DNA from: Aeromicrobium sp.
GTDB lineage: Bacteria; Actinomycetota; Actinomycetes; Propionibacteriales; Nocardioidaceae
Reading direction: 5' to 3'
Assembly (NCBI GenBank): GCA_025965175.1
Contig: JAOPXL010000112.1
Location: forward strand, 1 to 64,000
DNA: 64,000 bases
Positions 1 through 17,399 of this stretch are shown one piece after another. Within the stretch, counting starts at the first letter, position 1. Each line of letters opens with the position of its first letter. The position numbers were made by a program, and so were the translations under genes. The notes below the pieces were generated by a model that was not told the origin of the DNA, searched no databases, and saw nothing but the letters and a program-made list of their open reading frames with translations.

Positions 1-2
1 CG

Positions 3-197
3 ATCGTCGAGGACCTGCTCACGTGGCTGTGCGACCTGCTGCGCGGAAGGGTGTCGGCGTCGGCCATCACCACCTCCGCTCTGCTGCTGGCGGACACCAT
101 CGAGCATCAGGCGCCGGCAGGCGCGGACATCCTCCGCCAGGCCAGCGCACAGGTGCAGCTCGGCACCATGGAGCTCGATGGACGGGCCGTGGACTGA
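3..197 (+). CDS. C-terminal fragment of an unidentified protein (5' end outside window)
   Basis: Open frame from the window edge to TGA at 195-197 (...ITTSALLLADTIEHQAPAGADILRQASAQVQLGTMELDGRAVD*); not in ORF track because its start lies outside the window. Confidence 0.5.
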   Translation: MVEDLLTWLCDLLRGRVSASAITTSALLLADTIEHQAPAGADILRQASAQVQLGTMELDGRAVD

Positions 198-201
198 GTT
201 C

Positions 202-966
202 TCAGCCGACGGGAACGGACATGTGGTGCCGCAGCGACAGCATCGCCCGGGTGTGCAGCTGGCTGACGCGGGACTCGCTGATGCCGAGGACCTGACCGAT
301 CTGGGCCAACGTAAACCGCTCCCAGTAGTACAGCGCCACGATGACGCGGTCGCGCTCGGGCAGCTCGTGCAGGGCCCGGAGGAACTCGGGCGGATCGTCC
401 GTGTCGTGGTCGGCCAGGAACGACATCCCATGGTCCGAGGAGTTCTCGTACCCCGCGCCCATCTCGTCGATGCTGGCGACGTGGGTGTAGGAGATCTTCC
501 CGTAGACGGACCTCAGCTCGGCCACCGAGATCGAGAGCTCCGCGGCCACGTCGCTGTCCTCGGGGGTTCGCCCCAGGCGGCGTTCGAGGGTGACCTGCAC
601 CGCCTCGATCTCGCGGAACTTGTCCCGTACCGACCGAGGCACCCAGTCCGAGCGTCGCAGACCGTCGATGATGGCCCCGCGGATGCGGCGCACGGCGTAG
701 GTCTGGAACTGCAGACCGCGTTGCCGCTCGAACTTGTCGATTGCGTCCATCAGCCCGATGATGCCGTCGGAGATGAGGTCGGCCTGGTCGACCTGGGGTG
801 GCAGTCCTGCGCGTACGCGGCCGGCGACGTACTTGACCAGAGGAGCGTACTGGACGATCAGTCGCTCTCGAGCGTCGCGATCACCGCTCTCCTTGTAGCT
901 GCGCCAGAGCCGTTCGACGCCTTCCTGTGGATATGCAGGGTCCATCACAGTGCCGTTCTCCCTCAT
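202..966 (-). CDS. whiG: RNA polymerase sigma factor, FliA/WhiG family
   Basis: Sigma-70 regions: LIVQYAPLVKYVAGRVRAGLPPQVDQADLISDGIIGLMDAIDKFE, FQTYAVRRIRGAIIDGLRRSDWVPRSVR, LAQIGQVLGISESRVSQLHTRAML; typical of FliA/WhiG. Confidence 0.9.
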   Translation of the reverse strand: MRENGTVMDPAYPQEGVERLWRSYKESGDRDARERLIVQYAPLVKYVAGRVRAGLPPQVDQADLISDGIIGLMDAIDKFERQRGLQFQTYAVRRIRGAIIDGLRRSDWVPRSVRDKFREIEAVQVTLERRLGRTPEDSDVAAELSISVAELRSVYGKISYTHVASIDEMGAGYENSSDHGMSFLADHDTDDPPEFLRALHELPERDRVIVALYYWERFTLAQIGQVLGISESRVSQLHTRAMLSLRHHMSVPVG

Positions 967-1040
967 ACGGTGCAGCTAGATCCTTCTCCCACGAGTGATT
1001 CTAGATGCTCCGCGTCACACAGGTCGCCGAACGGGATGTG

Positions 1041-3083
1041 TCAGGGTGACTCGAAGTGCCAGGGCTCGGGTCGCGAACCGCCCGCTGCCGCCCAGGTGGG
1101 GGAGACCCAGCCGAAGGACGTGCCATGCGTGACCAGCCAGCGGTGCTCGGGGGTGTCGAGACGCTCCACGCCACCACACAGGTCGACGGCCCGTCCGGCT
1201 CCGTGGACAGAGGTGCCCACGGCCGCGGGGAGCTTGCGCTTCGAGGGCGTGAGTGCGGTCCGACCGACGTGCGAGCGGTAGGAGTCGGTGATGCAGAGCT
1301 CAGTGCCCAGCTCGGCGGTGAACGCGGCGGACATCAGGCGGAACGACACCGCAGCGTCGCATGCGAGCAGGTGCGTCGATCCGACGGCCGCGCTGCACAA
1401 TGCCTTGTCCGGGACCTCGCCATCGGGATGGGCTGTCCGTGCAAGCTCGGGGATCGGCAGCACCAGCGCAGCGTCGACTGCCCGTCCGTCGAGCCGCACC
1501 TCCAGGTGGAGGTGCGGTCCGCTGCTGTTGCCCTCGTTGCCGACGGCCCCGATCCTCTCGCCCTTCCTGATCTGCTGGCCGGGGACGACGTCGACCGTCG
1601 AGAGGTGTCCGTACCAGGTCTCGACGCCACCACCGTGGTCGACGCGCACGAGATTCCCGGCCCACGACGGGTGCTCGACGGTGACCACGCCGTCGGCGAC
1701 GGCGGACACGGGGGTGCCGATCGGTGCGGCGAAGTCCTGCCCGCTGTGGACCGTGGACCACCGCGAACCGCGCTGGCCGAATCCTGCCGAGATCCGGTAG
1801 GACCCGGCCGCCAGCGGCAGTTGCAACGCGAAGGTGCCCGTGGCACCGTCCGGGGCCGCCTGGACGGTGCCAGCCGGCAGGCCGCACCGACCGGCAGGGG
1901 GCGCGTCGTACGTGTGGGAGACGGGAAGGCCGACGCGTCTGATGCCATAGAGCCGTGTGCGGCTGACCGATTGCACAGAGGCCGTGCCAGTGACGGGGTC
2001 GGCGACGATGACCTGACGGTCCCCGACATACACTCCGGACTCCTCGAGACCGTCGCGTCGGCCGCCGAGGAGCACGACGTCACCGACCTGCATCGCCGAC
2101 TGCGGGACCTTCGCGAGCGTGCGCCACTGCGTCATCGAGTCGGCGGCCAGTTGGTCCGTGGCTCCCCATGCGTCAGCGACCAGGCCGCCACACGCGAATG
2201 TCGAGGGGGTTCCTGCGGCCGGGACCGTGGTCAGACCCAGCCGTCCGAACGCCGTGGAGACGGCGCGGACCGTCTCGGCCGGCAGGACGATGAGCGGGGT
2301 GCCGTCCTCGTTCTCGATCTGGGCGACGCCGGCGATCGCCTCGCCGGTGCGGCTTCGGACCGCCTCGAGGCTGCCTGGAAGCCGGGTGGGGTCGGTGAGC
2401 CGTGCGGCCTGTGGTGGCACGACATCGGCATCGATGAGCCTGTCGAGGTAGCGCTCCCAGCGCGCCAGTGCCGCTTCGTTGCGGGTGTCCTGCTCCGGGT
2501 CCGTGACGACGTAGCGCTCGTCGGGGTGGGCCAACGATCGGGCGAACTCGGCCACATCCCCGGCTGACCAGCCTGCCTGGCGGCGGGCCTGCTCGGCCAG
2601 CACCTCGTCGTAGGCCCGGCGGGTGCTCTCGGCTTTCACGATCGCCGTGTCGAGCGCGCGTCGCGACGTTGCTGCCAGACGTGACAAGTGCCCTGCGTTG
2701 TCGGCGGACTCAACGGCTCGGTCGGCTGCGGAGGGCGCCCCCGAGAAGAACCGGCCGACGACCGAGCGGAGGGCGCCGCCGTCCTCGGTCTGGACGTCCG
2801 CGCGGAGACGTTCAGCCGCCAGGGTCGCCCGCTGGGCGCTTGCCGCCAGCCTCTCGCGCTGGGCACCGATCAGCTCGACGGCCTTGACGGCGTCGCCATA
2901 GGCCGTGCGCGCGCCGGTCAGCTCCTCGGCCGCTGACCCGGCGGACGGCGCCGTCATCGGGCTCGACCAAGCCGGCCCGACCCCGACCAGCGGCGTGAGG
3001 GAGCCGATCAGCACGACAGCTGCGGGTACGCATCGCCGCATGACCGCGGCTGCCACGGCGGGCAGTGCCATCGGGCTCATCAC
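1041..3083 (-). CDS. Multi-domain peptidoglycan hydrolase: coiled-coil + NlpC/P60-like + M23 endopeptidase + M15 (VanY/DacB-like) carboxypeptidase
   Basis: Signal peptide; FACGGLVADAWG (NlpC-like Cys); M23 HSGQDFAAPIGTPV...GPHLHLE; C-terminal M15 SVHGAGRAVDLCGG...EPWHFE. Confidence 0.85.
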   Translation of the reverse strand: MMSPMALPAVAAAVMRRCVPAAVVLIGSLTPLVGVGPAWSSPMTAPSAGSAAEELTGARTAYGDAVKAVELIGAQRERLAASAQRATLAAERLRADVQTEDGGALRSVVGRFFSGAPSAADRAVESADNAGHLSRLAATSRRALDTAIVKAESTRRAYDEVLAEQARRQAGWSAGDVAEFARSLAHPDERYVVTDPEQDTRNEAALARWERYLDRLIDADVVPPQAARLTDPTRLPGSLEAVRSRTGEAIAGVAQIENEDGTPLIVLPAETVRAVSTAFGRLGLTTVPAAGTPSTFACGGLVADAWGATDQLAADSMTQWRTLAKVPQSAMQVGDVVLLGGRRDGLEESGVYVGDRQVIVADPVTGTASVQSVSRTRLYGIRRVGLPVSHTYDAPPAGRCGLPAGTVQAAPDGATGTFALQLPLAAGSYRISAGFGQRGSRWSTVHSGQDFAAPIGTPVSAVADGVVTVEHPSWAGNLVRVDHGGGVETWYGHLSTVDVVPGQQIRKGERIGAVGNEGNSSGPHLHLEVRLDGRAVDAALVLPIPELARTAHPDGEVPDKALCSAAVGSTHLLACDAAVSFRLMSAAFTAELGTELCITDSYRSHVGRTALTPSKRKLPAAVGTSVHGAGRAVDLCGGVERLDTPEHRWLVTHGTSFGWVSPTWAAAGGSRPEPWHFESP

Positions 3084-3499
3084 TCCTCGAGGAACGCGAT
3101 CTCCTGGAGGAGCTCCAGGGAGGGTCCGGCCGGTCGACGGGAGATCTCTCGCGCCGGTTCGGGGGTGTTGTTGGTGGGGTCCGGGCCGGAGGCGACCACG
3201 GGGATCCCGGGCACGGGCAGCGAGGCCGGTGGGACCGAGACGCGGACGGCCGGCGTCGGCTGCTCCGGGGGGCTGGCCGACTCCGGCGGGCTGGCCGACT
3301 CGGGGGGGCTGGCCGGCTCGGGGGGGCTGGCCGGCTCGGGGGCGGCTGGGCCGAGCTGCGGTGGTGCCTGGATCGGGGAACGCACGCCGAACAGCACCCG
3401 GGTGAGCGCCGCCATCTCCACCGTGATGCGGTGAGCGCCCGCGGCGTCCAGCGACTCGGCCGAGGAGGTGGTCGGGATCGGTTGGGTGTGCCCGCTCAT
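3080..3499 (-). CDS. Small Pro-rich protein with PPE(P/S)AS repeats, upstream of and overlapping the PG hydrolase by 4 nt
   Basis: 139-aa ORF; SPPEPASPPEPASPPESASPPESASPPEQ; stop/start overlap with the 1041-3083 gene. Confidence 0.6.
   Translation of the reverse strand: MSGHTQPIPTTSSAESLDAAGAHRITVEMAALTRVLFGVRSPIQAPPQLGPAAPEPASPPEPASPPESASPPESASPPEQPTPAVRVSVPPASLPVPGIPVVASGPDPTNNTPEPAREISRRPAGPSLELLQEIAFLEE
3271..3350. repeat. 18-bp tandem repeat (GGCTGGCCGRCTCSGGSG), about 4 units
   Basis: ggctggccgactccggcg / ggctggccgactcggggg / ggctggccggctcggggg x2. Confidence 0.85.
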
Positions 3500-3584
3500 C
3501 GGGACGGCAGCCTCTCCGCGGTCACGCGCGAGCCGGCGGTGCGTCGTGATGTCATGGATGCTCCTCGGAGGGGTGGAAACGCCT

Positions 3585-3660
3585 ATGACGGCCGAGGGAG
3601 TCGGCCGCCACAGGCGTTGAAACTGCGATGGTCCAGGGAGATGGCCACCACAGGCGTGGG
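3585..3660 (-). terminator. Two tandem hairpins downstream of the pilin gene
   Basis: Minus strand ACGCCTGTGGCGGCCGA-CTCCC-TCGGCCGTCATAGGCGT (17-bp stem, two G-U), preceded by CTGTGGTGG.CCA-TCTCCC-TGG.A.CCATCGCAG. Confidence 0.6.
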
Positions 3661-3673
3661 GTGGTGGGGTCGA

Positions 3674-4165
3674 TCAGGAAAGGGCCGCCCAGGTCAGGGA
3701 ACCTGCGCACGCGTCAGCGTTAGTGGGGACGTCGCCGGCCTTGCCGGGCTGGAGCCCGCCGGCCTTGGAGTCGTACCAGAAGGCCACCGACCCGCTCTCG
3801 GCGGTGCCGGCGGGGTTGTATCCGCGAATGCAGTAGCCGTTCGCCGGGCTGCCCGCGATCTCGATCGTGTTGTCCTTGGTGAGCTTGAGGCCAGCAGCCT
3901 CAAGGTTCTCCTGCGCCGTCTTCGCAGGGCTAGTAGTAGCGAAGCTCCCACCGGACGGGTCCTCGGTGATGAAGGTCTCCGCCGCGGTGGCGGAGCTCTT
4001 GAGGTCGGACTTGACGCCGGAGTCGACGCCCTTCTCACGCTGGCTGAGGAACATCGGGATGGCGACGGCGGCGAGGATGCCGATGATCACGATGACGACG
4101 AGGAGCTCGATCAGGGTGAAGCCCTTGTCCTTGCGGTCGGCGGGCAACTGTGGACGAACGGTCAT
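3674..4165 (-). CDS. pilA: Type IV major pilin (PilA-like prepilin)
   Basis: MTVRPQLPADRKDKGFTLIELLVVIVIIGILAAVAIPMFL prepilin signal; AGGAG 6 nt upstream of the ATG at 4165. Confidence 0.93.
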   Translation of the reverse strand: MTVRPQLPADRKDKGFTLIELLVVIVIIGILAAVAIPMFLSQREKGVDSGVKSDLKSSATAAETFITEDPSGGSFATTSPAKTAQENLEAAGLKLTKDNTIEIAGSPANGYCIRGYNPAGTAESGSVAFWYDSKAGGLQPGKAGDVPTNADACAGSLTWAALS

Positions 4166-4212
4166 GATGTTTCTCCTGAGGTGCGAATCACGGTGGATCG
4201 CGCGGTGCCTCA

Positions 4213-4240
4213 CCGTCGGCGGGGGGTCCTGCGCTATTTG
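4213..4240 (-). promoter_or_regulatory. Candidate WhiG/FliA-type promoter for pilA
   Basis: Minus strand TCAAATAGCGCAGGACCCCCCGCCGACGG (CAAA-N16-GCCGACGG), about 48 nt before the pilA ATG. Confidence 0.45.
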
Positions 4241-4247
4241 ACAACGT

Positions 4248-4273
4248 GGTCTTCGGTCCCGGGACGAAAGACC
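4248..4273. promoter_or_regulatory. 26-bp near-perfect palindrome in the divergent prepilin intergenic region
   Basis: GGTCTTCGGTCCC|GGGACGAAAGACC: 11 of 13 half-site positions are Watson-Crick complementary. Confidence 0.55.
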
Positions 4274-4345
4274 TTGAGGCTTCGGATGATTTTTTTTTCA
4301 GGGAACTCTTCGTTCGTTCTCAGCAAGTCCCCGCGACACCGGGTC

Positions 4346-4373
4346 TCAAGTTCGGGCTCCCGGATGCCGATCT
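4346..4373 (+). promoter_or_regulatory. Candidate WhiG/FliA-type promoter for the minor-pilin operon
   Basis: TCAA(4346-4349)-N16-GCCGATCT(4366-4373), about 49 nt before the ATG at 4422. Confidence 0.6.
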
Positions 4374-4421
4374 CATGTGCGCGGGACCCGCTCGTCCCAG
4401 CTCCACCACCGAAAGGCACCG

Positions 4422-4916
4422 ATGTCGAACGCGGACGGGAACAGTGGTCCCCCCGACGGGGGATTCACGCTCGTCGAAGTTCTCATCGCGATCGCGCTGA
4501 GCGGCCTGATGGCCTCCCTGGCCATCGCGGGGTACTCAAGCTGGGCCCGGTCCAGCGCACACATCGGCACCGCCCGTGAGGTCCAGACGACCATGAGGCA
4601 GGCGCAGCAGCGGGCCGTCACGGAGGGCCGGGCGACGTGCGTGTGGTTCACGACGGCGAGCGACACCTACACCGTCTACCGAGGCGCCTGCGAGGCCACG
4701 ACGAAGCAGAAGCTCACCGGGCCCCACCACACCGCGTCGAGTGATGTCGAGCTGTCCGGTCCGTCGTTCGCCGGCTCGTCCGGGAGCAGCGCCGGGGTCA
4801 CGTTCTACGCCCGGGGCACCGCCACCGCCGGCGGGGTCAACGTGATCCGGTCGGGCTCGACGAAGGTGTACCGGCTCACGGTGGAAGGGTTGACCGGTCG
4901 TGTCTCGTTGGTCTGA
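4422..4916 (+). CDS. Minor prepilin (GspH/FimT-like)
   Basis: GGFTLVEVLIAIALSGLMASLAIAGYSSW prepilin N-terminus; start chosen at MSNADG. Confidence 0.85.
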   Translation: MSNADGNSGPPDGGFTLVEVLIAIALSGLMASLAIAGYSSWARSSAHIGTAREVQTTMRQAQQRAVTEGRATCVWFTTASDTYTVYRGACEATTKQKLTGPHHTASSDVELSGPSFAGSSGSSAGVTFYARGTATAGGVNVIRSGSTKVYRLTVEGLTGRVSLV

Positions 4917-6657
4917 AGGTCGACGGTCCTCAGCGAGCCAGGACGATGGCTTCTCGCTCATCGAAGTGGTCGTCGCCCTCGGCATCCTGATGATGCTGGT
5001 GACGGCCTTGCTCCCGCAGCTGGTGGTCGGCATCCAGGCGACCAGCACATCTCGACTGGTCACGCAGGCGAAGGGAGTCGCCCAGGCTGAGCTCGAGACG
5101 ATGCGCAACCTTCCCTACCACGTGTCGTACGACGCAGGAGACTTTCGAGACGTCCTCGACTACTACTACAAGGACCTTGCCGCCCCCGGCACGTCGCCCG
5201 TCTGCAAGGCGGGCGCCAAGCTCGCGCCGCCCAAACCCGGGTGGACCGGCTACGTCGCGCCGTCTGCCGTGCGGTGCTCGTACGAACCGGCCACCGGCGC
5301 CTTCTATCGCACGGTCCGGCCGGTTCCCGCAGCCGAGGGCATCAGCGCGTTCACGGTCGTCACCAGCACCCAGTTCCTCTCCGCTAGCACACCACCTGCC
5401 GCCGTGACGCCGCAGTCCGGGTACAACACGCAGTCCGCGGTCGGCGGGGAGCCGGCCTCCTCACAGATTGGTGCCACGGTCACCGTGCTCTACACCGAAC
5501 GTGCCAGTCTGCGACCGACCTCGGTCACGACCCAGATCGCGCGGCAACCCCAGCTCACGACCAGGGTCCACGCCGACGCGGTGGTCAGCGCCGTCGAGGT
5601 GGGGTCGGAGACCCCCGCGGGCGTCCCCGTCTCCCTCAGCGCCGGTCAGCTCAGCCTGACGGGCTCCCTGACCCACGCGAGCAAGGTCGTCGCGACCCTC
5701 GCAGCCACGTCCGGCGCGCTGGCAACAGGGGAGAAGGCCGGCGGAGCAGCGGCAACGGTCTCCGCGCCGCCCGGCCGGAGCTCGTCGGTGTCGCTGGCAG
5801 GTGCGGCAGCACTGGGTGGGGCTGGTTGCGACTACGCGTGCTGGGGAGCGACTCGCGCGGACGTCCCCGGGCTCTCCGTTGCCGGCGGGCTGCCGCTGAT
5901 CGGCAGCCCGTCCGCTCCCGCACAGTCCCTGCTGACCGACACGTCGAACTACGGCATCTCGTTCGGCAACGGCCCCGTCGCCAGCTATCGTCCCGAGCTC
6001 AAGCTTTCGGCCCCCGTGGTCCGCCTGGACCCGAATGCCGTCACGGCGGGCAGCGGAGTCACCGACTCGTGCGTGGCGGGGACCTCCGGAACCGGCTCGT
6101 ACGTCACGGCGTCGGGCTTCGTCCGAACCACCGCGACGAGCGCAGCGACCGACCCCAGCACCGTCGAGTCCTGCGCCGTCTCACGCACCTCGACCCTCTC
6201 ACTGTTCCCGACCATTTTCGCCCCGCGAGGGATCGTCCTCATCGAGCTCCAACGTGCGTCTGTGCGATGCCGCGTCAGCGGCGCGAGCCACACCGCCAGC
6301 GTCGATCCACCCGACTACAAGGCCGTCGTGCAGTACTGGAACGGCTCGTCCTACCAGACGGCGGCGACCATCACGGCCTCGACCACGACGGACCCGCTGC
6401 AGAGCATCGACCTGGCCACGACCGCGACCGGCGACGGCACCTTCCTGGGCGACTACGTCAGCTCGTGGTCGGGGCTGACGCGCGGCGCGGTGACGACCTC
6501 GGCGGCGGCCGGGCGGGCCCTGGTCAAGGTGCCGGGCGTCGTCACGGTGGTCACGCAGCCGGTACGCAAGGACGACACGATCGCCACGGGGGATCCCACC
6601 TCGACGATCTCCCTGACGGTCGGCTCGCTGAGCTGCTCCGCGCTGGACGCGCGATGA
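4900..6657 (+). CDS. Minor prepilin, PilV-like with large C-terminal domain
   Basis: DDGFSLIEVVVALGILMMLVTALLPQLVVG; overlaps the previous gene. Confidence 0.8.
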   Translation: MSRWSEGRRSSASQDDGFSLIEVVVALGILMMLVTALLPQLVVGIQATSTSRLVTQAKGVAQAELETMRNLPYHVSYDAGDFRDVLDYYYKDLAAPGTSPVCKAGAKLAPPKPGWTGYVAPSAVRCSYEPATGAFYRTVRPVPAAEGISAFTVVTSTQFLSASTPPAAVTPQSGYNTQSAVGGEPASSQIGATVTVLYTERASLRPTSVTTQIARQPQLTTRVHADAVVSAVEVGSETPAGVPVSLSAGQLSLTGSLTHASKVVATLAATSGALATGEKAGGAAATVSAPPGRSSSVSLAGAAALGGAGCDYACWGATRADVPGLSVAGGLPLIGSPSAPAQSLLTDTSNYGISFGNGPVASYRPELKLSAPVVRLDPNAVTAGSGVTDSCVAGTSGTGSYVTASGFVRTTATSAATDPSTVESCAVSRTSTLSLFPTIFAPRGIVLIELQRASVRCRVSGASHTASVDPPDYKAVVQYWNGSSYQTAATITASTTTDPLQSIDLATTATGDGTFLGDYVSSWSGLTRGAVTTSAAAGRALVKVPGVVTVVTQPVRKDDTIATGDPTSTISLTVGSLSCSALDAR

Positions 6658-7322
6658 GCCCCACGACGCGGATGGTGCCGCCCAAGGACGCCGGGTTCAG
6701 CCTGGTAGAGCTTCTGGTCGCGATGGGCCTGTTCGGTGTGCTCGGCAGCCTGCTGCTGGGCCTGGCCCTCTCGACGGGCAACGTCACCGAGAACGTCCGG
6801 GCCCTGTCGAACATCAACGAGGAGTCCCGCCTGGCCGTGGAGCGTCTCAGTCGTGAGCTGCGGCAGGCCACCCAGGTGACGGCCGTGTCGCTGCCTTCCA
6901 CCTCCACCTCCACCGACCGCACCGCCCTCACCTTCTGGACGGACTTCGACGGCAACGGTGCCCAGGACCTGAACGCCGCCGATCCGGAGATCCTCACCTA
7001 CGAGTGGGATCCGCACATTGATCGGCTGACCTTGACCGTCAACGACGCCTCCGGCACGTCAATCACCCGGCCCTTGCTGGCCGCCAACGTCTCCGCGCTC
7101 ACGCTGGACCTTCGCAGCAGCGAATGGCGGCTCGACGCGGACGGCGACGGGCGGACCACCTGGCAGGAGCTCGACGTCCCGGCGGCCGGCGGCAACGGCA
7201 ACGGCGTGCCTGACGGACCAGAGCTGCTCAAGCTCGACCTCATCGGCGTGACCATGACGGTCCTCGACGGGGCCCGCGCCCAGACCTACACCACACGCGT
7301 CGACCTCCGGAACCGGGGCTGA
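6654..7322 (+). CDS. Minor prepilin, PilW/PilJ-like
   Basis: ATGA overlap at 6654; KDAGFSLVELLVAMGLFGVLGSLLLGLAL. The ORF-track extension to 5826 is a shadow of the upstream gene. Confidence 0.85.
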   Translation: MSPTTRMVPPKDAGFSLVELLVAMGLFGVLGSLLLGLALSTGNVTENVRALSNINEESRLAVERLSRELRQATQVTAVSLPSTSTSTDRTALTFWTDFDGNGAQDLNAADPEILTYEWDPHIDRLTLTVNDASGTSITRPLLAANVSALTLDLRSSEWRLDADGDGRTTWQELDVPAAGGNGNGVPDGPELLKLDLIGVTMTVLDGARAQTYTTRVDLRNRG

Positions 7323-7324
7323 AC

Positions 7325-8719
7325 ATGCACGCCACCCACTCCACCCGTCCCGACCATGCTGGCGCCCGATGGCAGGACCGGGGCTCGGCGATGATCCTCA
7401 CGCTCATGGTGATGACCCTGGTCACAGTCCTGAGCACGACCGTTGCGGTCGTGACGGTCAACAACCTGCAGTCGTCCTGGCGCTCGCGCCAGGCCGGCGC
7501 GGCGCTGAGCGCGGCCGACGCGGGCGTCGCACAGGCGGTCACCTACCTGCGGAGCTCGGGAGTCCGTGGCCTGGACTGCTCGCCCACCTGCCCGAGCAAT
7601 CCGTGGGGCAGCTCGACGACCCCCGCCTCGGTGACGCTGCCAGGCGCTGCGGGTCAGTCGTACAAGGTCTGGATCAAGGCTGTCGCTCCCTTCCCCCAGA
7701 ACGATCCCGGGGTCTATCAGATCAACTCCACCGGCTCGGCGGCCGGCGCCGCCTCACGACCGGTGACCGCCGAGGTGAGCGTCACCCGGAGCGACGTCCC
7801 CAAGGGAGTCTTCGCCCGGTCCGTCAGTGGCGGTGGCAGCGCGTCGGTGACCAACCAGAGCGTCTTCTCGACCAGCTGCGTCAACGACCGGTCGAAGATC
7901 GCGACGAGCGGTTTCGACCTGGCCTACGACGGCATCCCGGTCGGCGTCCACTCGTCGGCGACCATCACCGGGTCCAAGGGCTGCACCACCACGAACTCGA
8001 TCCACTCGGCCAAGCCGTGCAGCACCGGCTATCCCTACGACCAGGATCGTCTCGGCGGACGGCTGACGGCGGGCGACGGGTGCTACGACGCGCGGATGGC
8101 AGCGTCAGGCCCGTGGGCGAAGTACTACTCGACGTACGACACGAACGGCGACGGCACCAAGGACGTGTCGTCGCTGATCAAGTCCGACGGCGACCTGTTC
8201 AAGATCTTCGGCTTCCAACCGGACCTGAGCCAGGAACGCATCGACTCGTTGCGGATGCTGGCGCAGTCACAGGGGAACTACTGGCGGTCCTCCAGCAACT
8301 GGAGCAGTCCGGACGAGGCCAACGCCGTCATGTTCTTCGATCTCGCCGGGACAGACACCGGCGGCACCGTGGACCTGAACAACATCACCGGGTTCGGCCG
8401 TGACACCACCACGTCCGGCACCGCCCCGTCGTGTCCTTCGCGATCGCTCATCATCGTCATCGAGGGCGGCAACGCGAAGCTGAACTCCAACCAGAAGCTC
8501 GCCGCGTCGCTGATCCTGACCGGGAAGTCCCCCAACCTGGGGCAGCTCGGCAAGGCCAACGGCAACGCGACGTTCATCGGCACGATCTTCGCCGACACGA
8601 TCAACCTGGTCGGCAACGTGGACATCACGATGGACGCCTGCTTCCTGGCCAACCCGAGTCCCGGCCTGATGGACTTTGCCGTGACGTCGTACCGCGAGGA
8701 GGACCGCGGACTCGGCTGA
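7325..8719 (+). CDS. PilX-like pilus assembly protein
   Basis: RGSAMILTLMVMTLVTVLSTTVAVVTVNNLQSSWRSRQAGAALSAADAGVAQAV; last gene of the prepilin operon. Confidence 0.7.
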   Translation: MHATHSTRPDHAGARWQDRGSAMILTLMVMTLVTVLSTTVAVVTVNNLQSSWRSRQAGAALSAADAGVAQAVTYLRSSGVRGLDCSPTCPSNPWGSSTTPASVTLPGAAGQSYKVWIKAVAPFPQNDPGVYQINSTGSAAGAASRPVTAEVSVTRSDVPKGVFARSVSGGGSASVTNQSVFSTSCVNDRSKIATSGFDLAYDGIPVGVHSSATITGSKGCTTTNSIHSAKPCSTGYPYDQDRLGGRLTAGDGCYDARMAASGPWAKYYSTYDTNGDGTKDVSSLIKSDGDLFKIFGFQPDLSQERIDSLRMLAQSQGNYWRSSSNWSSPDEANAVMFFDLAGTDTGGTVDLNNITGFGRDTTTSGTAPSCPSRSLIIVIEGGNAKLNSNQKLAASLILTGKSPNLGQLGKANGNATFIGTIFADTINLVGNVDITMDACFLANPSPGLMDFAVTSYREEDRGLG

Positions 8720-8728
8720 CCGAGGCGG

Positions 8729-9943
8729 TCAGCCGATCAGCTCGAACACCTTGAAGATCGGCAGGTACAGGGCGATGATCATCGACCCGACCACGCCGCC
8801 GAGGAATGCGATCATCAGCGGCTCGATGAGGGCGGTGAGCGCCTCGGTCGTCGCCTCGACCTCGTCGTCGTAGAACTCCGCGATCTTCTGGAGCATCTTG
8901 TCGATGGCGCCGGACTCCTCGCCGGAGGCGATCATCTGCACGACCATCGGCGGGAAGACCTTGTGCGCCGCCAGCGGCGCTGACACGGACTCGCCGCGAC
9001 GCACCGACTCCTGGACCTCCTTGAGCGCCCGGGAGATGACGACGGAGCCCGTGGTCTCGGAGACGATCTCCAACGACTGCAGGATCGGTACGCCCGAGGA
9101 CAGCAACGTGCCCAGGTTGCGGGCGAAGCGAGCCAGGGCGAGCTTCTGGAACAGCTTGCCGAACACCGGCAGCCGCAGCTTCAGCGGATCGACGACGTTG
9201 CGCACCGGCTCGGTCTTGCCGAACCTGCGCCACCACCACAAGCCGACGACCGCGAGCACGACCACCAGCGGCAGCATGAACCGCATCGACTTGGACAGGA
9301 CGACCAGCACCTGGGTGGGCAGGGGGAGGGTGCCACCCAGGTCCTTGAACATGGCCTCGAAGGTGGGAACGACGAAGACCAGCATGCCGACGCACATGAG
9401 CATCGCGAGGATGAACACGACGATCGGGTAGGTCAGCGCCGCCTTGATCTTGCCGCGCAGTCTCACCTCGGCCTCGAAGTTGTCGGCGATCTGACGCATC
9501 GTGACGTCCAGGAACCCGCCGGCCTCGCCGGCCCGGGTCATGTTGACCATCAACGGGGGAAAGATGTCGTCCTTCGCGAACGCGGCCGACAGGCTCATGC
9601 CGGCCTCGATGTCCTGCTTGACCCTGCGCAGGATCCGGCGCATCTCGGGGTTGTCCGACTGCTCCGCGAGGATCGTCAGTCCCCGGAGCATCGTCAGGCC
9701 CGCGTCGATCATGGTGGCGAACTGCCGGGAGAAGATCGCGAGGTCCTTCATCTTCACGCGCTTCTTGCGCCCGAAGCTGATCTCCTTCTGCATGCCCGCA
9801 TTGGCGGGACGCACCTCGAGCGGGGCGTAGCCCATGCCACGAAGCTTCTCGGCGACGGCCGCCTCCGAGGCGGCCTCCACCTTGCCCTCGACCAGCTTGC
9901 CGCCGGGTCCTCGAACCTTGTACGAGTACTGCTGGGTGGTCAT
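8729..9943 (-). CDS. pilC: Type IV pilus inner membrane platform protein PilC (T2SF family)
   Basis: MTTQQYSYKVRGPGGKLVEGKVEA...FSRQFATMIDAGLTMLRGLTILAEQ...; T2SF repeats. Confidence 0.93.
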   Translation of the reverse strand: MTTQQYSYKVRGPGGKLVEGKVEAASEAAVAEKLRGMGYAPLEVRPANAGMQKEISFGRKKRVKMKDLAIFSRQFATMIDAGLTMLRGLTILAEQSDNPEMRRILRRVKQDIEAGMSLSAAFAKDDIFPPLMVNMTRAGEAGGFLDVTMRQIADNFEAEVRLRGKIKAALTYPIVVFILAMLMCVGMLVFVVPTFEAMFKDLGGTLPLPTQVLVVLSKSMRFMLPLVVVLAVVGLWWWRRFGKTEPVRNVVDPLKLRLPVFGKLFQKLALARFARNLGTLLSSGVPILQSLEIVSETTGSVVISRALKEVQESVRRGESVSAPLAAHKVFPPMVVQMIASGEESGAIDKMLQKIAEFYDDEVEATTEALTALIEPLMIAFLGGVVGSMIIALYLPIFKVFELIG

Positions 9944-9971
9944 GAAGTTTCCTCGGTGCTCGTCGGTGTCG

Positions 9972-11198
9972 TCAGCGCCGGCCGTCGGCAGCGGTGCCGC
10001 CGGCATTGACGAGAGTGTCGAAGTCGGCGCGGTTGGAGCAGTGCTCGACACCCGTCTCGTAGCTGATCCGGCCCGTCTTGACCAGTCCCGCCAGATCGGC
10101 GTTCAACGTCTGCATGCCGTCCTTGGCCCCCGACTGCAGCGCGCCCTGGATCTGCTGGAGCTTGTCGTCCCGGATCATCGCCCTGATGCCGGAGTTGCAG
10201 ACCATGATCTCCACGGCGGCCGCGCGGCCCTTGCCGTTCACGGTCTTGACCAGGGTCTGGCACAGCACGCCCTGGAGGGTCGCGGCCAGCTGGGTGCGGA
10301 CCTGCTGCTGCTGATCGGCGGGGAACACGTCGACGATGCGGGTGATGGTGTCCTGCGTGGACTGCGTGTGGAGCGTGGCGAAGACGAGGTGACCGGTCTC
10401 GGCGGCGGTCAGGGCGACCGAGATGGTGTCGAGGTCGCGGAGCTCACCGACGAGGATGACATCGGGATCCTGGCGCAGCACGTGCTTGAGGGCGCCCCGG
10501 AAGCCGTGCGTGTCCTGACCGATCTCCCGCTGGTTGACCAGGCAGCCCCGGTGCTGGTGCAAGAACTCGATCGGATCCTCGATCGTCATGATGTGACCGC
10601 GCCGGGAGCGATTGATCTTGTCGATCAGGGCGGCGAGCGTCGTGGACTTGCCCGAACCCGTGGGGCCGGTCACCAGCACGAGTCCACGCTTGAGGTGGGC
10701 GAAGCTCTCGACGACCGGGGGCATGCCCAGCTCCTCGAGCGGCTTGATCTCCCACGGGATCGCGCGCATGACGGCGCCGAGCGACTCGCGCTGCTGGAAG
10801 ACGTTGACGCGGAACCGGGCGTGACCGGGGACGGCGTAGGCGAAGTCCAGCTCGAGCTCTTCCTCGAAGACCTTGCGCTGCCGCTCCGTCATGACGCCGT
10901 AGAGGGTCTCCTGCAGCTGGCTCGGGGTCAGCTTGGCGTACCCGTCGATCACCTGCATCTCACCGCGGACCCGGACGGTCGGCGGGGCGTTCGTGGTGAG
11001 GTGTAGATCGGATCCGCCGAGCTCCAGCACATGGATGAGCAGGTCGTCGAGGACCAGGCGCCGGTCGGTGGGTGCGGGAGCGGGCGGCGCCTGCCGCGGG
11101 GGAGCGGCCGGCACGGCGGCCGCAGGTGCCACCTGCGGAGGGCCTGCGAGGGGGAGCCCGAAACCACCCGAGTCAACGGGCGAGGAGAACTGGTTCAC
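9972..11198 (-). CDS. pilT: Type IV pilus retraction ATPase PilT
   Basis: GSDLHLTTNAPPTVRVRGEM, GPTGSGKSTTLAALIDKIN, AETGHLVFATLHTQST; GTG start at 11198 assumed. Confidence 0.9.
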   Translation of the reverse strand: MNQFSSPVDSGGFGLPLAGPPQVAPAAAVPAAPPRQAPPAPAPTDRRLVLDDLLIHVLELGGSDLHLTTNAPPTVRVRGEMQVIDGYAKLTPSQLQETLYGVMTERQRKVFEEELELDFAYAVPGHARFRVNVFQQRESLGAVMRAIPWEIKPLEELGMPPVVESFAHLKRGLVLVTGPTGSGKSTTLAALIDKINRSRRGHIMTIEDPIEFLHQHRGCLVNQREIGQDTHGFRGALKHVLRQDPDVILVGELRDLDTISVALTAAETGHLVFATLHTQSTQDTITRIVDVFPADQQQQVRTQLAATLQGVLCQTLVKTVNGKGRAAAVEIMVCNSGIRAMIRDDKLQQIQGALQSGAKDGMQTLNADLAGLVKTGRISYETGVEHCSNRADFDTLVNAGGTAADGRR

Positions 11199-11295
11199 GT
11201 CTGTCCTACGGTCGATGGGGAGCGGGCGTTCGGAGCCGCTAGGAGCATCGGTCCCGGCAGTCACGATCTTGAGGGTCCCGCGCCGTGAGACCGGC

Positions 11296-12987
11296 TCAGA
11301 CGACGACGCGCAGGACCTCCTCGATCGACGTCCGGCCCTGCAGCACCTTGAGCCAGCCGTCGTGACGGAGCGTGACCATGCCCTGGGCCCGGGCGGCACG
11401 CCCGACGTCGTCGGTGGAGGCACGTGCGACGGCGAGGCGTTCGATCTCCTCGGTGACCGTCATGACCTCGTGCAGAGCCATCCGTCCGCGATAGCCCGTG
11501 TTGGCGCACTTCGAGCAGCCGCCGGGATGGTACAGCGTCGGCACGCCCGCCTCGGGGTCCCACGGAATGCCGAGGCGGTCGAGCTCCTCGGCCTCCGGCT
11601 GGTAGGGCTCCCGGCAGCGGTCGCACAGTGATCGGCACAACCGCTGGGCGAGCACCGCGTCGATCGCCGACCCGACCAGGAACGGCTCGATCCCCATCTC
11701 GACGAGACGGGTCACCGCCGAGGGTGCGTCGTTCGTGTGCAGGGTCGTCAGCACCAGGTGGCCAGTGAGGGCGGCCTCGATCGCGATCTGCGCTGTCTCG
11801 TGGTCACGGATCTCACCGATCAGGATGATGTCGGGATCCGACCGCAGGATCGAGCGCAGGGCCGAGGCGAAGGTGAGTCCGGCCCGGGCGTTGGTCTGCA
11901 CCTGGTTGATGCCGGTCATCCGGTACTCGACCGGGTCCTCGACCGTGATGACGTTGACATCGGGCTTGTTCAGCAGGTTCAGGGTCGCGTAGAGAGTCGT
12001 CGACTTGCCCGATCCGGTCGGACCGGTGGCCAGGATCATGCCGTAGGGCTTGGTGAACGACCGCTCGAACCGCTCGAAGTTGCCGGCGGAGAAGCCGAGG
12101 TCGTCCAGGCCCAGCAAGGTGTTGCTGTTGTCCAGGATGCGTGCCACGACCTTCTCGCCCCAGACCGTAGGCAGCGTCGCGACGCGCAGGTCGATGCGCC
12201 GTCCCTGGTGGTTCACCGACAGCCGGCCATCCTGGGGGATGCGCCGTTCGGCGATGTTCATCTCGGCCATGATCTTGAGCCGCGACACGACGCCGTTGTG
12301 GATGTTCTTGGGGGAGCGGTGGGCGTCCTGCAGGACACCGTCGATGCGATAGCGGACGCGTAGATCGTGCTCGGTGGGCTCGATGTGGATGTCGGAGGCA
12401 CGATCGCTGATGGCCTGGGAGATCAGCAGGTTGACGAAGCGGACGACGGGAGCCTCGTCGGAAACCTCGGTGAAGCTGTCGAGGTCATCGTCGGCCGACT
12501 GCTCGTTGGACACGAGGTTCGAGGTCAGGTCGTCGAGCTCGCCCTCTGCACGGTAGATCTGGTTGAGCTTGGTCACGATGTCGGTGCGGTTCGCCACGGC
12601 GAACCGCACCCGACGCCTGGTCAACCGGCTGATGTCGTCCTTGAGCTCGATGTTCCCGGCCTGCCTGATTGTCACGGCGACGACCAGCTCGTCCTCGTCC
12701 CAGTCGATCGGCAGAACCGACGCCCGACGCGCGAACTCGGCAGGCAACGCGGCGGCGGCACCGGCATTGACCGAGTACTCGGTCAGGTCGACGTACGACA
12801 GTCCGACCGACTCGGCAGCGGTCCGCATCAGGTCGTCCCTGCGCACGATGCCCTCGTCGACCAGCACCTCGAGGGCGTTGTGCGCCCCGAGCTCGGCCGT
12901 GCGCTCCGCGTCGGCGAGCTGCTCAGGCGTCACCAGGCCGGCGTCGAGAAGCGCCCGGGCGGTGTTGCCTGACTGGTGGGGCGTCAC
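11296..12987 (-). CDS. pilB: Type IV pilus assembly ATPase PilB (GspE family)
   Basis: MshEN-like N-terminus, GPTGSGKSTTLYATLN, EDPVEYRMTGINQVQTNARAGLTFASALRSILRSDPDIILIGEIRD, CSKCANTGYRGR zinc motif. Confidence 0.95.
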   Translation of the reverse strand: MTPHQSGNTARALLDAGLVTPEQLADAERTAELGAHNALEVLVDEGIVRRDDLMRTAAESVGLSYVDLTEYSVNAGAAAALPAEFARRASVLPIDWDEDELVVAVTIRQAGNIELKDDISRLTRRRVRFAVANRTDIVTKLNQIYRAEGELDDLTSNLVSNEQSADDDLDSFTEVSDEAPVVRFVNLLISQAISDRASDIHIEPTEHDLRVRYRIDGVLQDAHRSPKNIHNGVVSRLKIMAEMNIAERRIPQDGRLSVNHQGRRIDLRVATLPTVWGEKVVARILDNSNTLLGLDDLGFSAGNFERFERSFTKPYGMILATGPTGSGKSTTLYATLNLLNKPDVNVITVEDPVEYRMTGINQVQTNARAGLTFASALRSILRSDPDIILIGEIRDHETAQIAIEAALTGHLVLTTLHTNDAPSAVTRLVEMGIEPFLVGSAIDAVLAQRLCRSLCDRCREPYQPEAEELDRLGIPWDPEAGVPTLYHPGGCSKCANTGYRGRMALHEVMTVTEEIERLAVARASTDDVGRAARAQGMVTLRHDGWLKVLQGRTSIEEVLRVVV

Positions 12988-13003
12988 GGTGGCTCCTGCA
13001 TGC

Positions 13004-13519
13004 CTAGTCGGGGAGGATGGACAGGGCCAGGAGCGGGTCTTCGCGGTAGCGACGGATCAGCTCGGCGCTGGCTTCGTCGATCCGCGCATGCAGGGCCCGG
13101 CGGTAGCGGGTCAGCTGCTCGACAGCGGAGCGGATCCGATCGATTGCGTCGGTGACCTGCTCCGGGTCGTGAGGATTCACCTCTCTGGCCCACATGTCGG
13201 CCAGATCGGGCAGGTCGGGCAGAGGGTCGCCCGCTCGGATGCTGGCGAGCTGGCCACGTGCCTGACCGCTTCCCGTGTCCCCCAACGCGCGCACGAGATC
13301 GCCGAAGCTGAGGTTGCCCTCGCTGTGGGCGCCGGCCTCCAGGACGTCGATCCGGGCGTGGGCGAGCCGCCGCCAGTACGAGACCTTGTCCTCCTCGGCC
13401 GTGAGGTGCTGGCGGTACGCCCGCAGCTCGTCGAAGGTCAGGCTCCTCGGCTCGCGCTCGGGTGGCGTGCCGGCCGAGACGGCGTCGCCTGGCAATCCAG
13501 GCTGCGGGGTGACGTTCAC
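13004..13519 (-). CDS. rsiG: RsiG-like c-di-GMP-binding anti-sigma factor (putative WhiG antagonist)
   Basis: LTFDELRAYRQHLTAEEDKVSYWRRLAHARIDVLEAG contains E-x3-S-x2-R-x3-H-x3-D; C-terminal helix AVEQLTRYRRALHARIDEASAELIRRYRED contains T-x2-R-x3-H-x3-D. GTGA overlap with the upstream pilT paralog. Confidence 0.75.
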   Translation of the reverse strand: MNVTPQPGLPGDAVSAGTPPEREPRSLTFDELRAYRQHLTAEEDKVSYWRRLAHARIDVLEAGAHSEGNLSFGDLVRALGDTGSGQARGQLASIRAGDPLPDLPDLADMWAREVNPHDPEQVTDAIDRIRSAVEQLTRYRRALHARIDEASAELIRRYREDPLLALSILPD

Positions 13520-14625
13520 GCGGCTCCCACCGGAGCATCGACCAGTGTTGGATCGAGGCCCGCACGCTTCAGCATGACGCCGAAGTCATGCGTGTTCGAC
13601 GACGCGAGCTTGGCCGCCGGGATGGACACGATGCCGTCGAGCACGAGCCGGACGAGGTGCTGGTCGAACGTCTGCATGCCGGAGTACCCGCCCCCGGCAA
13701 CGATCTCGTCGATGGTGTCAGTGCGGTCAGGATCGGCGATGGCCTCGGACAGACGGGGGCCGTTCACCGCGATCTCCATGATCACCACCCGGCCCTGTCC
13801 ATCGGCGCGGGGCACGAGCCGCTGGCAGACGATGCCTCTGAGGGCGGTGGCGAGGCCCAGTCGTACCTGCTTCTGCTCGTGCGGTGGGAAGAAGTCGATG
13901 ATGCGGTTGATCGTCTCCTTGGCGTCCGTCGTATGAAGGGTGGACATCACGAAGTGGCCTGTCTCAGCGGCCGAGAGACCAGCCTTGACCGTGTCGGCGT
14001 CGCGCATCTCGCCGATCAGGATCACGTCGGGGTCCTGGCGCATCGCAGCACGGAGCGCCGTCGCCCAGTCAGCGGTGTCGGTGCCGAGCTCACGCTGGCT
14101 GACACTGGCCAGCTTGTCGCGGTGGATCACCTCGATGGGGTCCTCGATCGTCAGGACGTGCACCGCCCGGCTCTCGTTGATCGCGTCCACCATCGCCGCC
14201 ATGGTGGTCGTCTTGCCGGAGCCTGTCGGGCCAGTGACCAGCAGGAGGCCGCGGGGCTCCAGGGCCAGCTGTCCGACGACGTCGGGCAGGCTCAGCGCTG
14301 CGAGTGACATCGGCTCGTCGCCGACCAGCCGCAGCACACAGCCGGCTGTGCCGCGGGTCCGGAAGGCGTTGACCCGGAACCGGCCGATGCCGGGCACGTC
14401 GAGTGCGTAGTCGGCCTCGTTGGTGGCGGCGAAGCTGTCCTCGACGTCACGCGGCATCGTCTCCAGGATGAGCGCCTCGGCCACCTCGGCCGTCAGAGGA
14501 TCGACCTGCAACGGGACCAGGGATCCGGAGATGCGAATCTTCGGGGGGCTGCCGACCTTGATGTGGAGGTCCGACCCATGATTGACGACCACCGCATTCA
14601 AGTACGGTGCGATTTGCGTGGTCAC
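13516..14625 (-). CDS. Second PilT/PilU-like ATPase
   Basis: HGSDLHIKVGSPPKIRISGSLVPL, GPTGSGKTTTMAAMVDAINESR, RQDPDVILIGEMRDADTVKAGLSAAETGHFVMSTLHT; GTG start at 14625 likely. Confidence 0.88.
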   Translation of the reverse strand: MTTQIAPYLNAVVVNHGSDLHIKVGSPPKIRISGSLVPLQVDPLTAEVAEALILETMPRDVEDSFAATNEADYALDVPGIGRFRVNAFRTRGTAGCVLRLVGDEPMSLAALSLPDVVGQLALEPRGLLLVTGPTGSGKTTTMAAMVDAINESRAVHVLTIEDPIEVIHRDKLASVSQRELGTDTADWATALRAAMRQDPDVILIGEMRDADTVKAGLSAAETGHFVMSTLHTTDAKETINRIIDFFPPHEQKQVRLGLATALRGIVCQRLVPRADGQGRVVIMEIAVNGPRLSEAIADPDRTDTIDEIVAGGGYSGMQTFDQHLVRLVLDGIVSIPAAKLASSNTHDFGVMLKRAGLDPTLVDAPVGAA

Positions 14626-14656
14626 TTCGCCGACGCCTCCGCATGATCTTTCGTCC

Positions 14657-14673
14657 GGACGGACCCTCCGTCC
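14657..14673. promoter_or_regulatory. Palindrome GGACGGA-CCC-TCCGTCC in the divergent pilT2/pilM region
   Basis: Perfect 7-3-7 inverted repeat. Confidence 0.5.
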
Positions 14674-14748
14674 AGGCGACACGTTAGCGCCGAAGTCTGC
14701 CCGTGAGCGGCTGGACTGCCGAGTCGACGCCGGAAAAAATCCAAGGCC

Positions 14749-14776
14749 TCAAGCCGAGGCTGTCCCGCGCCGATGA
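14749..14776 (+). promoter_or_regulatory. Candidate WhiG/FliA-type promoter for the pilMN-O operon
   Basis: TCAA(14749-14752)-N16-GCCGATGA(14769-14776), 60 nt before the ATG at 14836; same spacing as the 4346 site. Confidence 0.6.
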
Positions 14777-14835
14777 GAAGGATGGCTCGGGATCCATCGT
14801 CGTGGACCGGGTGGCCGACGCGAAGTGAAGGACAC

Positions 14836-16671
14836 ATGGCACGCACCTTGGTGGGTCTCGACATCGGCAGCTCTGGCCTGCGGGCCGGGGAGTTCTCGGC
14901 AGGCAGCCGAAGGCTTCGTCTTCGCAGATTCGCAGAGCTGAGGCTTCCCCCGGGGGTCGTGCGTGCCGGGATGGTCGTCGACCCTGACGCTCTCACCGCT
15001 GCACTCGCCGAGCTGTGGTCGATCGGGCGGTTCCGGAGCAAGACGGTCGTGCTGGGAGTGGCCAACGCCGGCGTCCTGGTGAGACAGATGGACCTGGACT
15101 GGATGGCCCCGGCCGACTTCGGCAGGGCACTGCGCTATCAGGTCGAGGATGCGCTGCCGATGGCGGTGGACGACGCCAATCTCGACTACCACCTGCTCGA
15201 CGACCTGGAGCTCAAGGGCGAGGACGGCACACCCCGGCGCGTGGCGCGCGTGCTCCTCGTGGCCGCCGCTCGGGAGATGGTGGACGCGTTCGTGGGGGCG
15301 GTGGACCGCGCGGGCCTCCGCGCCGTGAGCGTCGACCTGGTGCCGTTCGCGCTCGTCCGGTCGGCGCTGATGTGCTTGCCGTCGGAGCCGGATGAGACGG
15401 CTCCGCTGGAGGCGTTGGTCGACATCGGTTTCGACGTCGTGACCTTGGTGGTGCATCAGGGCGGCAAGCCGCGCTACGTGCGGATGCTGCCCGGGGTGGG
15501 CAGCGACGCCATGTCACAGGCCATTCAGGAACGCTACGACTGGACGTGGGACGAAGCTGAACGGACCAAGGTGGTCGTCGGGCTGCCCGGCCACGCGTCC
15601 GTGAAGCCGGAGGTCCCCCGCGCGGACGGGCTGGACCACCCCGCCCAACGCGTCGTGGCCGCTGAGGCCGAGGCGCTGGCTGCCGAGATCGCGACGACCC
15701 TGGACTACGTGCGTGACGCAGACAGTCCCGAGCTGGCACGGGTCCTGCTCGCGGGCGCGGGCAGTCGGCTCGGTGGCCTGCCGCAGCTGTTCGAGAAGAG
15801 GCTCGGCGTCCCGGTGGAGCAGATGGCGCTCACCGATCGGGTGCGGACCGCCGGCCGCGGCCGGGACACCGAGATCGACGACACGTCCCTGATGATCCCG
15901 GCCGGTCTGTGTCTGCGGGCCGGGGCCACCCGAGGCGCGGAGGCGAAGCGGAATCCGGTCGCGGCCGTCCTGCCGTCGGTCAACCTGCTCTCCCCGTGGT
16001 CGTTCGGACGCATCGCTGTCCGACGTCTGCGGATACGTTTTGCGGTCGGCTGTCTCGTGCTCGTGTCCGTCGCCACCGCTGGCTGGGGCCTCCAGGTGAT
16101 GCGCGTCGGTGACGCCGACGCGTTGCTGAGGGTAGAGACGGCCGAGACGACCCGGCTCACCGAACGCACCAACGTCCTGCAACCGGTCAAGACCTTCGTT
16201 GCCGGTGTCGAGCAGCAGAAGGTGACCATCTCGAAGACCATGGCCTCCGAGATCTACTTCTCCAAGGTGCTGCGGTCCATGAGCGATGCAGCACCCTCCG
16301 GTGTCGTGCTGGACTCGCTCGCCGTGACGCTGGCCCCACCGGCGCCGGCGCCCGCCCCCGCCAAAGGTTCGAAGGACAAGTCACCGGCCGCCGTGCCGGC
16401 CACGCCGTCCCCATGTCCGGGGCCCGACCCGTTCCAGACCCGCACGGTAGTGGGGTGTATCACCCTGTCCGGCACTGCCGGCAGTCGCGCCGCGGTGGGC
16501 GCCCTCGTCGTTGCGCTCCGGGCCGACGACTCGTTCGTGGAGCCGTTCATCTCCACCACTACCACCGCTGACGCCACGAAGGTCACCTTCAGTGGATCGG
16601 TTGGGCTGTCCAAGAAGGTCTTCAGCTCGCGCTACGCCAAGCTCGACCAGCTGTTGAGCGGGAAGGACTGA
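14836..16671 (+). CDS. pilM: PilM-PilN fusion protein
   Basis: N-terminal actin-like PilM (LVGLDIGSSGLRAGEF...VLLAGAGSRLGGLPQLFEKRLGVPVEQM), then PilN-type NLLSPWSFGR...TM...coiled-coil...periplasmic domain in the same frame. Confidence 0.88.
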   Translation: MARTLVGLDIGSSGLRAGEFSAGSRRLRLRRFAELRLPPGVVRAGMVVDPDALTAALAELWSIGRFRSKTVVLGVANAGVLVRQMDLDWMAPADFGRALRYQVEDALPMAVDDANLDYHLLDDLELKGEDGTPRRVARVLLVAAAREMVDAFVGAVDRAGLRAVSVDLVPFALVRSALMCLPSEPDETAPLEALVDIGFDVVTLVVHQGGKPRYVRMLPGVGSDAMSQAIQERYDWTWDEAERTKVVVGLPGHASVKPEVPRADGLDHPAQRVVAAEAEALAAEIATTLDYVRDADSPELARVLLAGAGSRLGGLPQLFEKRLGVPVEQMALTDRVRTAGRGRDTEIDDTSLMIPAGLCLRAGATRGAEAKRNPVAAVLPSVNLLSPWSFGRIAVRRLRIRFAVGCLVLVSVATAGWGLQVMRVGDADALLRVETAETTRLTERTNVLQPVKTFVAGVEQQKVTISKTMASEIYFSKVLRSMSDAAPSGVVLDSLAVTLAPPAPAPAPAKGSKDKSPAAVPATPSPCPGPDPFQTRTVVGCITLSGTAGSRAAVGALVVALRADDSFVEPFISTTTTADATKVTFSGSVGLSKKVFSSRYAKLDQLLSGKD

Positions 16672-16673
16672 CC

Positions 16674-17309
16674 ATGCAGCTCCACACGCCTCGCGCGACC
16701 ACGATCATCGGGGTCGCGTCTCTGCTCCTGATCGCTGCCGTGTCCTGGATCGTGGTGATCGGCCCGGAGATGTCGCGGCTGTCCGCGGTGCGCACCCAGA
16801 TCCAGGACACCAGGGACCAGAACGCCCTCCTCCAGGTACAGCTCGCGAGACTCGTGAAGCAGTCGAAGGATCTCGACGACGTGCGGGGGACGGCCGAGGC
16901 GCTCGCCGCCAAGTTCCCGCCCACCGCGGACCAGCCTGGACTGTTCGAGGCCGTGACGGAGGCTGCGGTCGACGCCGGCATCGGTGCGGACGGCATCACC
17001 ACCCTTGCTCCCAGCCCACCCGTCACGGGTGGCGACCCCGCCGCAGGCGTGGCGGCGCAGCAGCCGACGAAGGGTGGCCAGCTGGCCCGCCAGGCCGTGT
17101 CGATCTCCATTGAGGGCAGCTACCAAAAGACGCTTCGACTGCTGGACAACCTCGAGCAGATGTCGCGGGCCTACCTGGTCACGTCGGTGTCCCTGAACGG
17201 CGGAGCGGAGGATGGGTTCACCACGACCCTGACCGGCGACATGTTCGTGATGCCGCCTCTGACGGACCCGGGTGACGTCGACCAGGACGCTGTCCCTTCG
17301 GCCGGCTGA
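16674..17309 (+). CDS. pilO: PilO-like T4P assembly protein
   Basis: Single TM then coiled-coil and IEGSYQKTLRLLDNLEQMSRAYLVTSVSL PilO fold motif; position after pilMN. Confidence 0.8.
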   Translation: MQLHTPRATTIIGVASLLLIAAVSWIVVIGPEMSRLSAVRTQIQDTRDQNALLQVQLARLVKQSKDLDDVRGTAEALAAKFPPTADQPGLFEAVTEAAVDAGIGADGITTLAPSPPVTGGDPAAGVAAQQPTKGGQLARQAVSISIEGSYQKTLRLLDNLEQMSRAYLVTSVSLNGGAEDGFTTTLTGDMFVMPPLTDPGDVDQDAVPSAG

Positions 17310-17399
17310 CCAACCGGAAAATCGACCGCCAGCCCTTCAGAGCACCCCGCGACCCTGCCGATACACCGGTTGACCGACCTGGAGACGAAAGGACTACCG

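Follow-up and report, generated by a model that had tools for sequence, protein, structure and literature searches.

The window, a 64,000-nt stretch of Aeromicrobium sp. DNA, corresponds to contig C225 of a draft genome of 2.96 Mb in 241 contigs that is 88% complete. It carries a type IV pilus (T4P) gene cluster together with genes for a sigma factor of the WhiG/FliA group and an anti-sigma factor of the RsiG family (Table 1), and the gene calls were checked by Pfam and by comparison with solved structures. Sigma regions 2, 3 and 4 of sigma-70 were all identified by Pfam in the WhiG of the window. Its best match of solved structure was the WhiG of Streptomyces venezuelae (E 5e-74), which ranked above FliA proteins, and it is 98% identical to the WhiG of the MAG Aeromicrobium sp. 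RYN_205, the nearest named relative. A flagellin gene was searched for in the source genome and none was found. Between pilA and whiG there is a minus-strand gene (1041-3083) for a multi-domain peptidoglycan hydrolase with M23, NlpC/P60 and VanY matches, and the order pilA, hydrolase, whiG is kept in several relatives. An ORF at 12984-13565 was initially read as rsiG, but it is in the wrong frame, and the true rsiG is that listed in Table 1.

Table 1. Genes and predicted promoter sites of the T4P-whiG cluster (coordinates are those of the window).
Feature	Coordinates	Strand	Details
whiG, WhiG/FliA-group sigma factor	202..966	-	Pfam, solved structures
pilA, major pilin	3674..4165	-	start ATG 4165
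pilA site of the first-pass annotation, CAAA-N16-GCCGACGG	4213..4240	-	47 nt before ATG 4165
Predicted WhiG-type promoter, pilA, TCAA-N16-ACCGAAGA	4250..4277	-	84 nt before start
Predicted WhiG-type promoter, minor-pilin operon, TCAA-N16-GCCGATCT	4346..4373	+	48 nt before ATG 4422
Minor-pilin operon	4422..8719	+	GspH-like gene 4422-4916, more pilin-like genes, final gene 7325-8719
pilT and pilC	8729..11198	-	T2SSE, T2SSF domains
Predicted WhiG-type promoter, pilT-pilC, TCAA-N16-ACCGATGC	11245..11272	-	pilB-pilT gap, 46 nt before pilT GTG
pilB, extension ATPase with MshEN domain	11296..12987	-	
rsiG, anti-sigma factor, second RsiG clade	13004..13519	-	PF22802
pilT2, second PilT-type ATPase	13516..14625	-	approximate start
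Predicted WhiG-type promoter, pilM-O, TCAA-N16-GCCGATGA	14749..14776	+	59 nt before ATG 14836
pilM (C-terminal part pilN-like) and pilO	14836..17309	+	PilM_2, PilO domains

The RsiG of the window matched PF22802 (E 7e-19, 67.7 bits, cut-off 27) and the RsiG of S. venezuelae (E 1e-6), and it is one chain of 171 residues with two motif regions. The c-di-GMP motif of RsiG, E(X)3S(X)2R(X)3[Q/H](X)3D, is present in two copies in the twin-motif form of the protein. In the window protein the first copy is complete (E..S..R..H..D, with the known Q-to-H change) and the second reads V..T..R..H..D, such that its glutamate has been lost to V (L in the next relative, G151), whereas E..T..R..[H/F]..D is found there in most relatives from the Nocardioidaceae. 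Judging from the sequence, the missing glutamate may alter the binding of c-di-GMP. A tree placed the window protein in a second RsiG clade, along with the RsiGs that relatives encode within or next to their T4P or whiG loci and an unlinked second RsiG from many families, and a long branch split this clade from the canonical RsiGs (12 rows; support 100/100, branch 2.03). Schumacher et al. reported just one genome with a second RsiG (PMC8325347).

The first-pass annotation had proposed FliA/WhiG-type promoters before the minor-pilin operon, pilM and pilA, and all three strings were found where it had placed them, with the spacing claimed and at the distances given in Table 1. Four of the pil transcription units in the window (pilA, minor pilins, pilT and pilM) have a site of the form TCAA-N16-NCCGA, and the full pilA and pilT sites on the minus strand, at 4277-4250 and 11272-11245, read CTCAAGgtctttcgtcccgggACCGAAGA and CTCAAGatcgtgactgccgggACCGATGC, respectively. 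The -10 elements of the four sites are the FliA/WhiG-type GCCGATAA or near it. The position of the -35 element and the spacing of 16 fit a promoter of this type, but where TAAA is expected about 15-16 nt upstream the sequence is TCAA, sometimes TTAA, and never TAAA in the 29 pilM regions discussed below. A sigma-70 promoter scan of window positions 1-17400 gave no match.

The pilA site of the first-pass annotation fared differently from the other two. In G151 both the -35/spacer and the -10 of CAAA-N16-GCCGACGG are altered, while the site at 4277-4250, which is 37 nt upstream of it, is intact there with one spacer change and with the 84-nt distance retained. Based on this comparison, the CAAA site is probably not the main pilA promoter. 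In four Nocardioides-like loci the pilA sites with N16 spacing are 67-97 nt before the start, which agrees with the 4277-4250 site of the window.

To compare these regions among the Nocardioidaceae, T4P-whiG loci from nine relatives were studied together with that of the window, and the pattern TCAA-N16-NCCGA was counted over the 220 nt upstream of every gene. The intergenic DNA of the distant members looks unrelated apart from this single element. It was found upstream of pilM in 10/10 loci (shuffle mean 0.017 loci) and upstream of the first minor-pilin gene in 6/6 (shuffle mean 0.010), which places both sites far beyond chance. Upstream of pilA it was present in 6/7 loci, the exception being the pilA of G136. 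With dinucleotide shuffles the mean was 0.003-0.03 loci per gene, and for pilM, the minor pilins and pilA the expectation was 0.01-0.03 per gene. The remaining genes were less uniform: pilT had the site in three of seven loci (window, G151 and G136, in the same arrangement), and for pilB and pilT2 it was confined to the Nocardioides-like loci (4/9 overall and 4/4 of those for pilB; 3/9 and 3/4 for pilT2). When whole loci were searched at spacings of 8-25, there were 52 matches with N16, compared with 0-18 at each of the others. Lesser peaks at 13, 19 and 22 are offset from 16 by multiples of three, like in-frame coding matches.

The same 220-nt search identified no site before whiG (0/7 loci) or the M23 hydrolase gene (0/3), and in the window there was none before pilT2, the pilT2-rsiG-pilB segment, whiG or the hydrolase gene. 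The first-pass annotation had reported these absences correctly for whiG, the hydrolase and the start of the pilT2 operon, but it had missed the pilT site within that operon. It had suggested that the operon may use another sigma factor; as pilT-pilC carries its own site, no other sigma factor need be invoked for that part.

Some further matches were observed in the relatives. In G154 the contig with pilM-O also carries, downstream of these genes, a gene for a PAS-GGDEF diguanylate cyclase with TCAA-N16-GCCGATGT in front (L076:7784-7811), as has been reported for Rubrobacter, and in G151 TCAA-N16-CCCGATGC precedes a response-regulator gene adjoining whiG (L075:19653-19680), a gene that the contig of the window stops short of. 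The site before a minor-pilin gene at L070:3158 and that before a prepilin-peptidase-like gene at L071:19717 (the latter locus from the cultured Nocardioides sp. CGMCC 1.13656) belong to different genomes, yet their -35 element plus spacer is the same over 20 nt, TCAAGTCCGCAGGTCAGCGC.

Of 396 genomes of the class, 130 had RsiG (PF22802). A strong PilM match was found in 45/61 RsiG-positive genomes sampled from beyond the large Streptomyces-like family, versus 4/60 RsiG-negative ones. We read the best 30 PilM loci, and the 29 usable loci from the RsiG-positive group represent many families other than Nocardioidaceae; the counts across the class and those within the family are raw with respect to relatedness, and members of a clade do not count as independent. 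TCAA-N16-NCCGA was upstream of pilM in 22/29 of these loci from RsiG-bearing genomes, and T[C/T]AA in 26/29, with 0-2 at other spacings and a Markov-shuffle mean of 0.08. The 26 sites all have NCCGA with the next base mostly T, and the TAAA form of the -35 was found in none of the 29 regions. In the RsiG-negative genomes the site was upstream of none of four pilM loci. Sites between pilB and pilT were also found in several other families. Each of seventeen RsiG-bearing genomes examined has a single WhiG with an identity of at least 49%, and no site was seen before these whiG genes. The unlinked second rsiG genes, by contrast with the canonical ones (0/12), had TCAA-N16-NCCGA upstream in 9/15 loci (L231, L235, L236, L237, L239, L240, L241, L244 and L245), an arrangement by which the sigma factor would control expression of its own anti-sigma factor.

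A search of the source genome for exact TCAA-N16-GCCGAT, as the first-pass annotation had recommended, returned 12 matches, two of which are the minor-pilin and pilM sites. The related pattern TCAAG-N15-VCCGA gave 95 matches, most of which look coding or lie inside genes. When the surroundings of each were scored for coding potential, all four sites of the T4P locus ranked among the lowest seven. At T4P gene starts there were four such matches against about 0.01 expected. The backgrounds used were coding potential, other spacings and shuffles; a reversed-pattern control was dropped because GCCGA falls in frequent codons. Since TCAAG-N15-VCCGA was derived from the sites themselves, the conservation result weighs more than this search. 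One apparently non-coding match elsewhere, CTCAAG-N15-GCCGAAGG, is 53 nt before a gene for an FAD-dependent monooxygenase (L176; G000:C170:1045-1069, minus strand) and is without other support. Another sequence, CTTAAG-N15-GCCGATGT, is near a contig start (L347; G000:C161, minus strand) and points off the contig end; the same fragment has a GGDEF gene. Six GGDEF proteins encoded in the source genome are potential producers of c-di-GMP, and no convincing TCAA-type site was found before their six loci within the stretch examined.

We considered whether these sites might be something other than WhiG promoters. That they are chance matches, GCCGA being common in this GC-rich genome, is scarcely credible, even though most of the 95 matches are inside genes and the earlier pilA site is probably such a match: the 10/10 and 6/6 conservation compares with shuffle means of at most 0.02, the spacing is specific, and the element recurs in other families. 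For the pilM and minor-pilin sites in particular, the conservation test refuted a chance origin. It is very unlikely that the element is conserved as a target of a repressor or activator instead of as a core promoter. An operator could likewise be two-part, conserved and at a fixed distance, but the element is asymmetric, always points towards the gene that follows it and lies 40-105 nt ahead of the gene start; its order and spacing match the two-part flagellar promoter consensus, and a sigma factor gene of the matching group adjoins.

A somewhat less remote alternative, which we still consider improbable, is that the sites are promoters read by a sigma factor other than the WhiG of the cluster. 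The source genome has five further, weaker WhiG matches, and related genomes encode several other sigma factors of about 30-37% identity. Against this, the FliA/WhiG group is the one for which -10 elements of the GCCGATAA type are known (PMC8325347), and the pilM site accompanies RsiG-bearing genomes and was missing from the four RsiG-negative pilM loci.

A single WhiG-type regulon over the T4P genes, which the first-pass annotation had put forward, is the reading best supported by the sequence comparisons, because the element recurs before the same genes, with the same spacing, in relatives and before pilM in many other families, the adjacent sigma factor is a WhiG homologue, and flagellin was not found. 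We infer that the WhiG encoded beside the cluster would read the predicted promoters, which have a -35 of (C/G)TCAAG, a -10 of GCCGAT or near it and a 16-nt spacer, and so transcribe pilA, the minor pilins, pilT-pilC and pilM-O. At high c-di-GMP, the RsiG of the same cluster would bind WhiG with the nucleotide and hold it inactive, as in Streptomyces and Rubrobacter; when c-di-GMP falls, pili would be made. We consider it very probable that a WhiG regulon over the T4P genes, under the control of RsiG and c-di-GMP, is the best explanation of the locus. As the pilA of G136 and, in the window, the pilT2-rsiG-pilB segment and whiG are without a site, part of the system would depend on another promoter. 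Since pilA, the hydrolase gene and whiG are on one strand, transcription from pilA may continue across the hydrolase gene and reach whiG.

According to PMC8325347, no sigma-anti-sigma pair other than WhiG-RsiG is known to be a target of c-di-GMP, and the switch has two known outputs, sporulation in Streptomyces and pilus formation in Rubrobacter. In Rubrobacter radiotolerans and R. xylanophilus the WhiG-RsiG-c-di-GMP switch is over T4P, with mapped start sites (Schumacher et al. 2021, PMC8325347). The window system resembles that of Rubrobacter in having WhiG, RsiG and, ahead of several pil operons, predicted promoters of flagellar type; in the relative G154, such a site also stands in front of the diguanylate cyclase gene close to the pil cluster, a further similarity. 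It differs in that its RsiG is a twin-motif protein of the second clade, whereas that of Rubrobacter is small, single-motif and homodimeric; in the TCAA form of the -35; in that rsiG is inside the pil cluster; and in belonging to a different class, with a much wider range. Based on the shared sigma group and -10 element, it is best filed as a variant of the Rubrobacter WhiG-pilus regulon. In S. venezuelae, whose WhiG is the closest solved relative, RsiG is of the same Pfam family and also has two motif helices, but there the switch acts on sporulation, whereas the predicted targets here are pilus genes, the RsiG clade differs, and the second c-di-GMP motif of the window protein is incomplete. 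Zoospores of Actinoplanes missouriensis, also of the class Actinomycetes, have T4P and flagella under FliA-family sigma factors, as cited in PMC8325347; the predicted control of T4P genes by a WhiG-like sigma factor is similar, but PMC8325347 describes Actinoplanes as flagellated and without RsiG, while here RsiG is present and flagellin was not found.

We regard as new the extension of the WhiG pilus regulon to twin-motif RsiG lineages, the second RsiG clade, and the predicted promoter before its unlinked rsiG genes. A broader proposition seems to us evenly balanced between right and wrong. In much of the class, WhiG would mainly serve to switch on T4P via TCAA-N16-GCCGAT promoters, and the second RsiG clade, not separated before, would be a pilus-specific anti-sigma factor. 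Some families would encode it within the pil cluster; in other families its gene would lie elsewhere with a WhiG-type promoter of its own, and WhiG would thereby increase the level of its inhibitor. Where a genome has both types of RsiG, its one WhiG would answer to two anti-sigma factors that depend on c-di-GMP, and the sporulation control of Streptomyces would be derived.

The named promoters and the second RsiG clade are open to experiment in cultured Nocardioides. Near-identical sites stand before corresponding pilus genes in many distantly related actinobacteria, and this suggests that control of pili is a widespread use of the c-di-GMP-dependent switch that governs spore formation in Streptomyces. 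Shared pilus promoters across many families with twin-motif RsiG would show that such control is not peculiar to Rubrobacter, and a wider pilus switch makes the timing of its diversion to sporulation a testable question.
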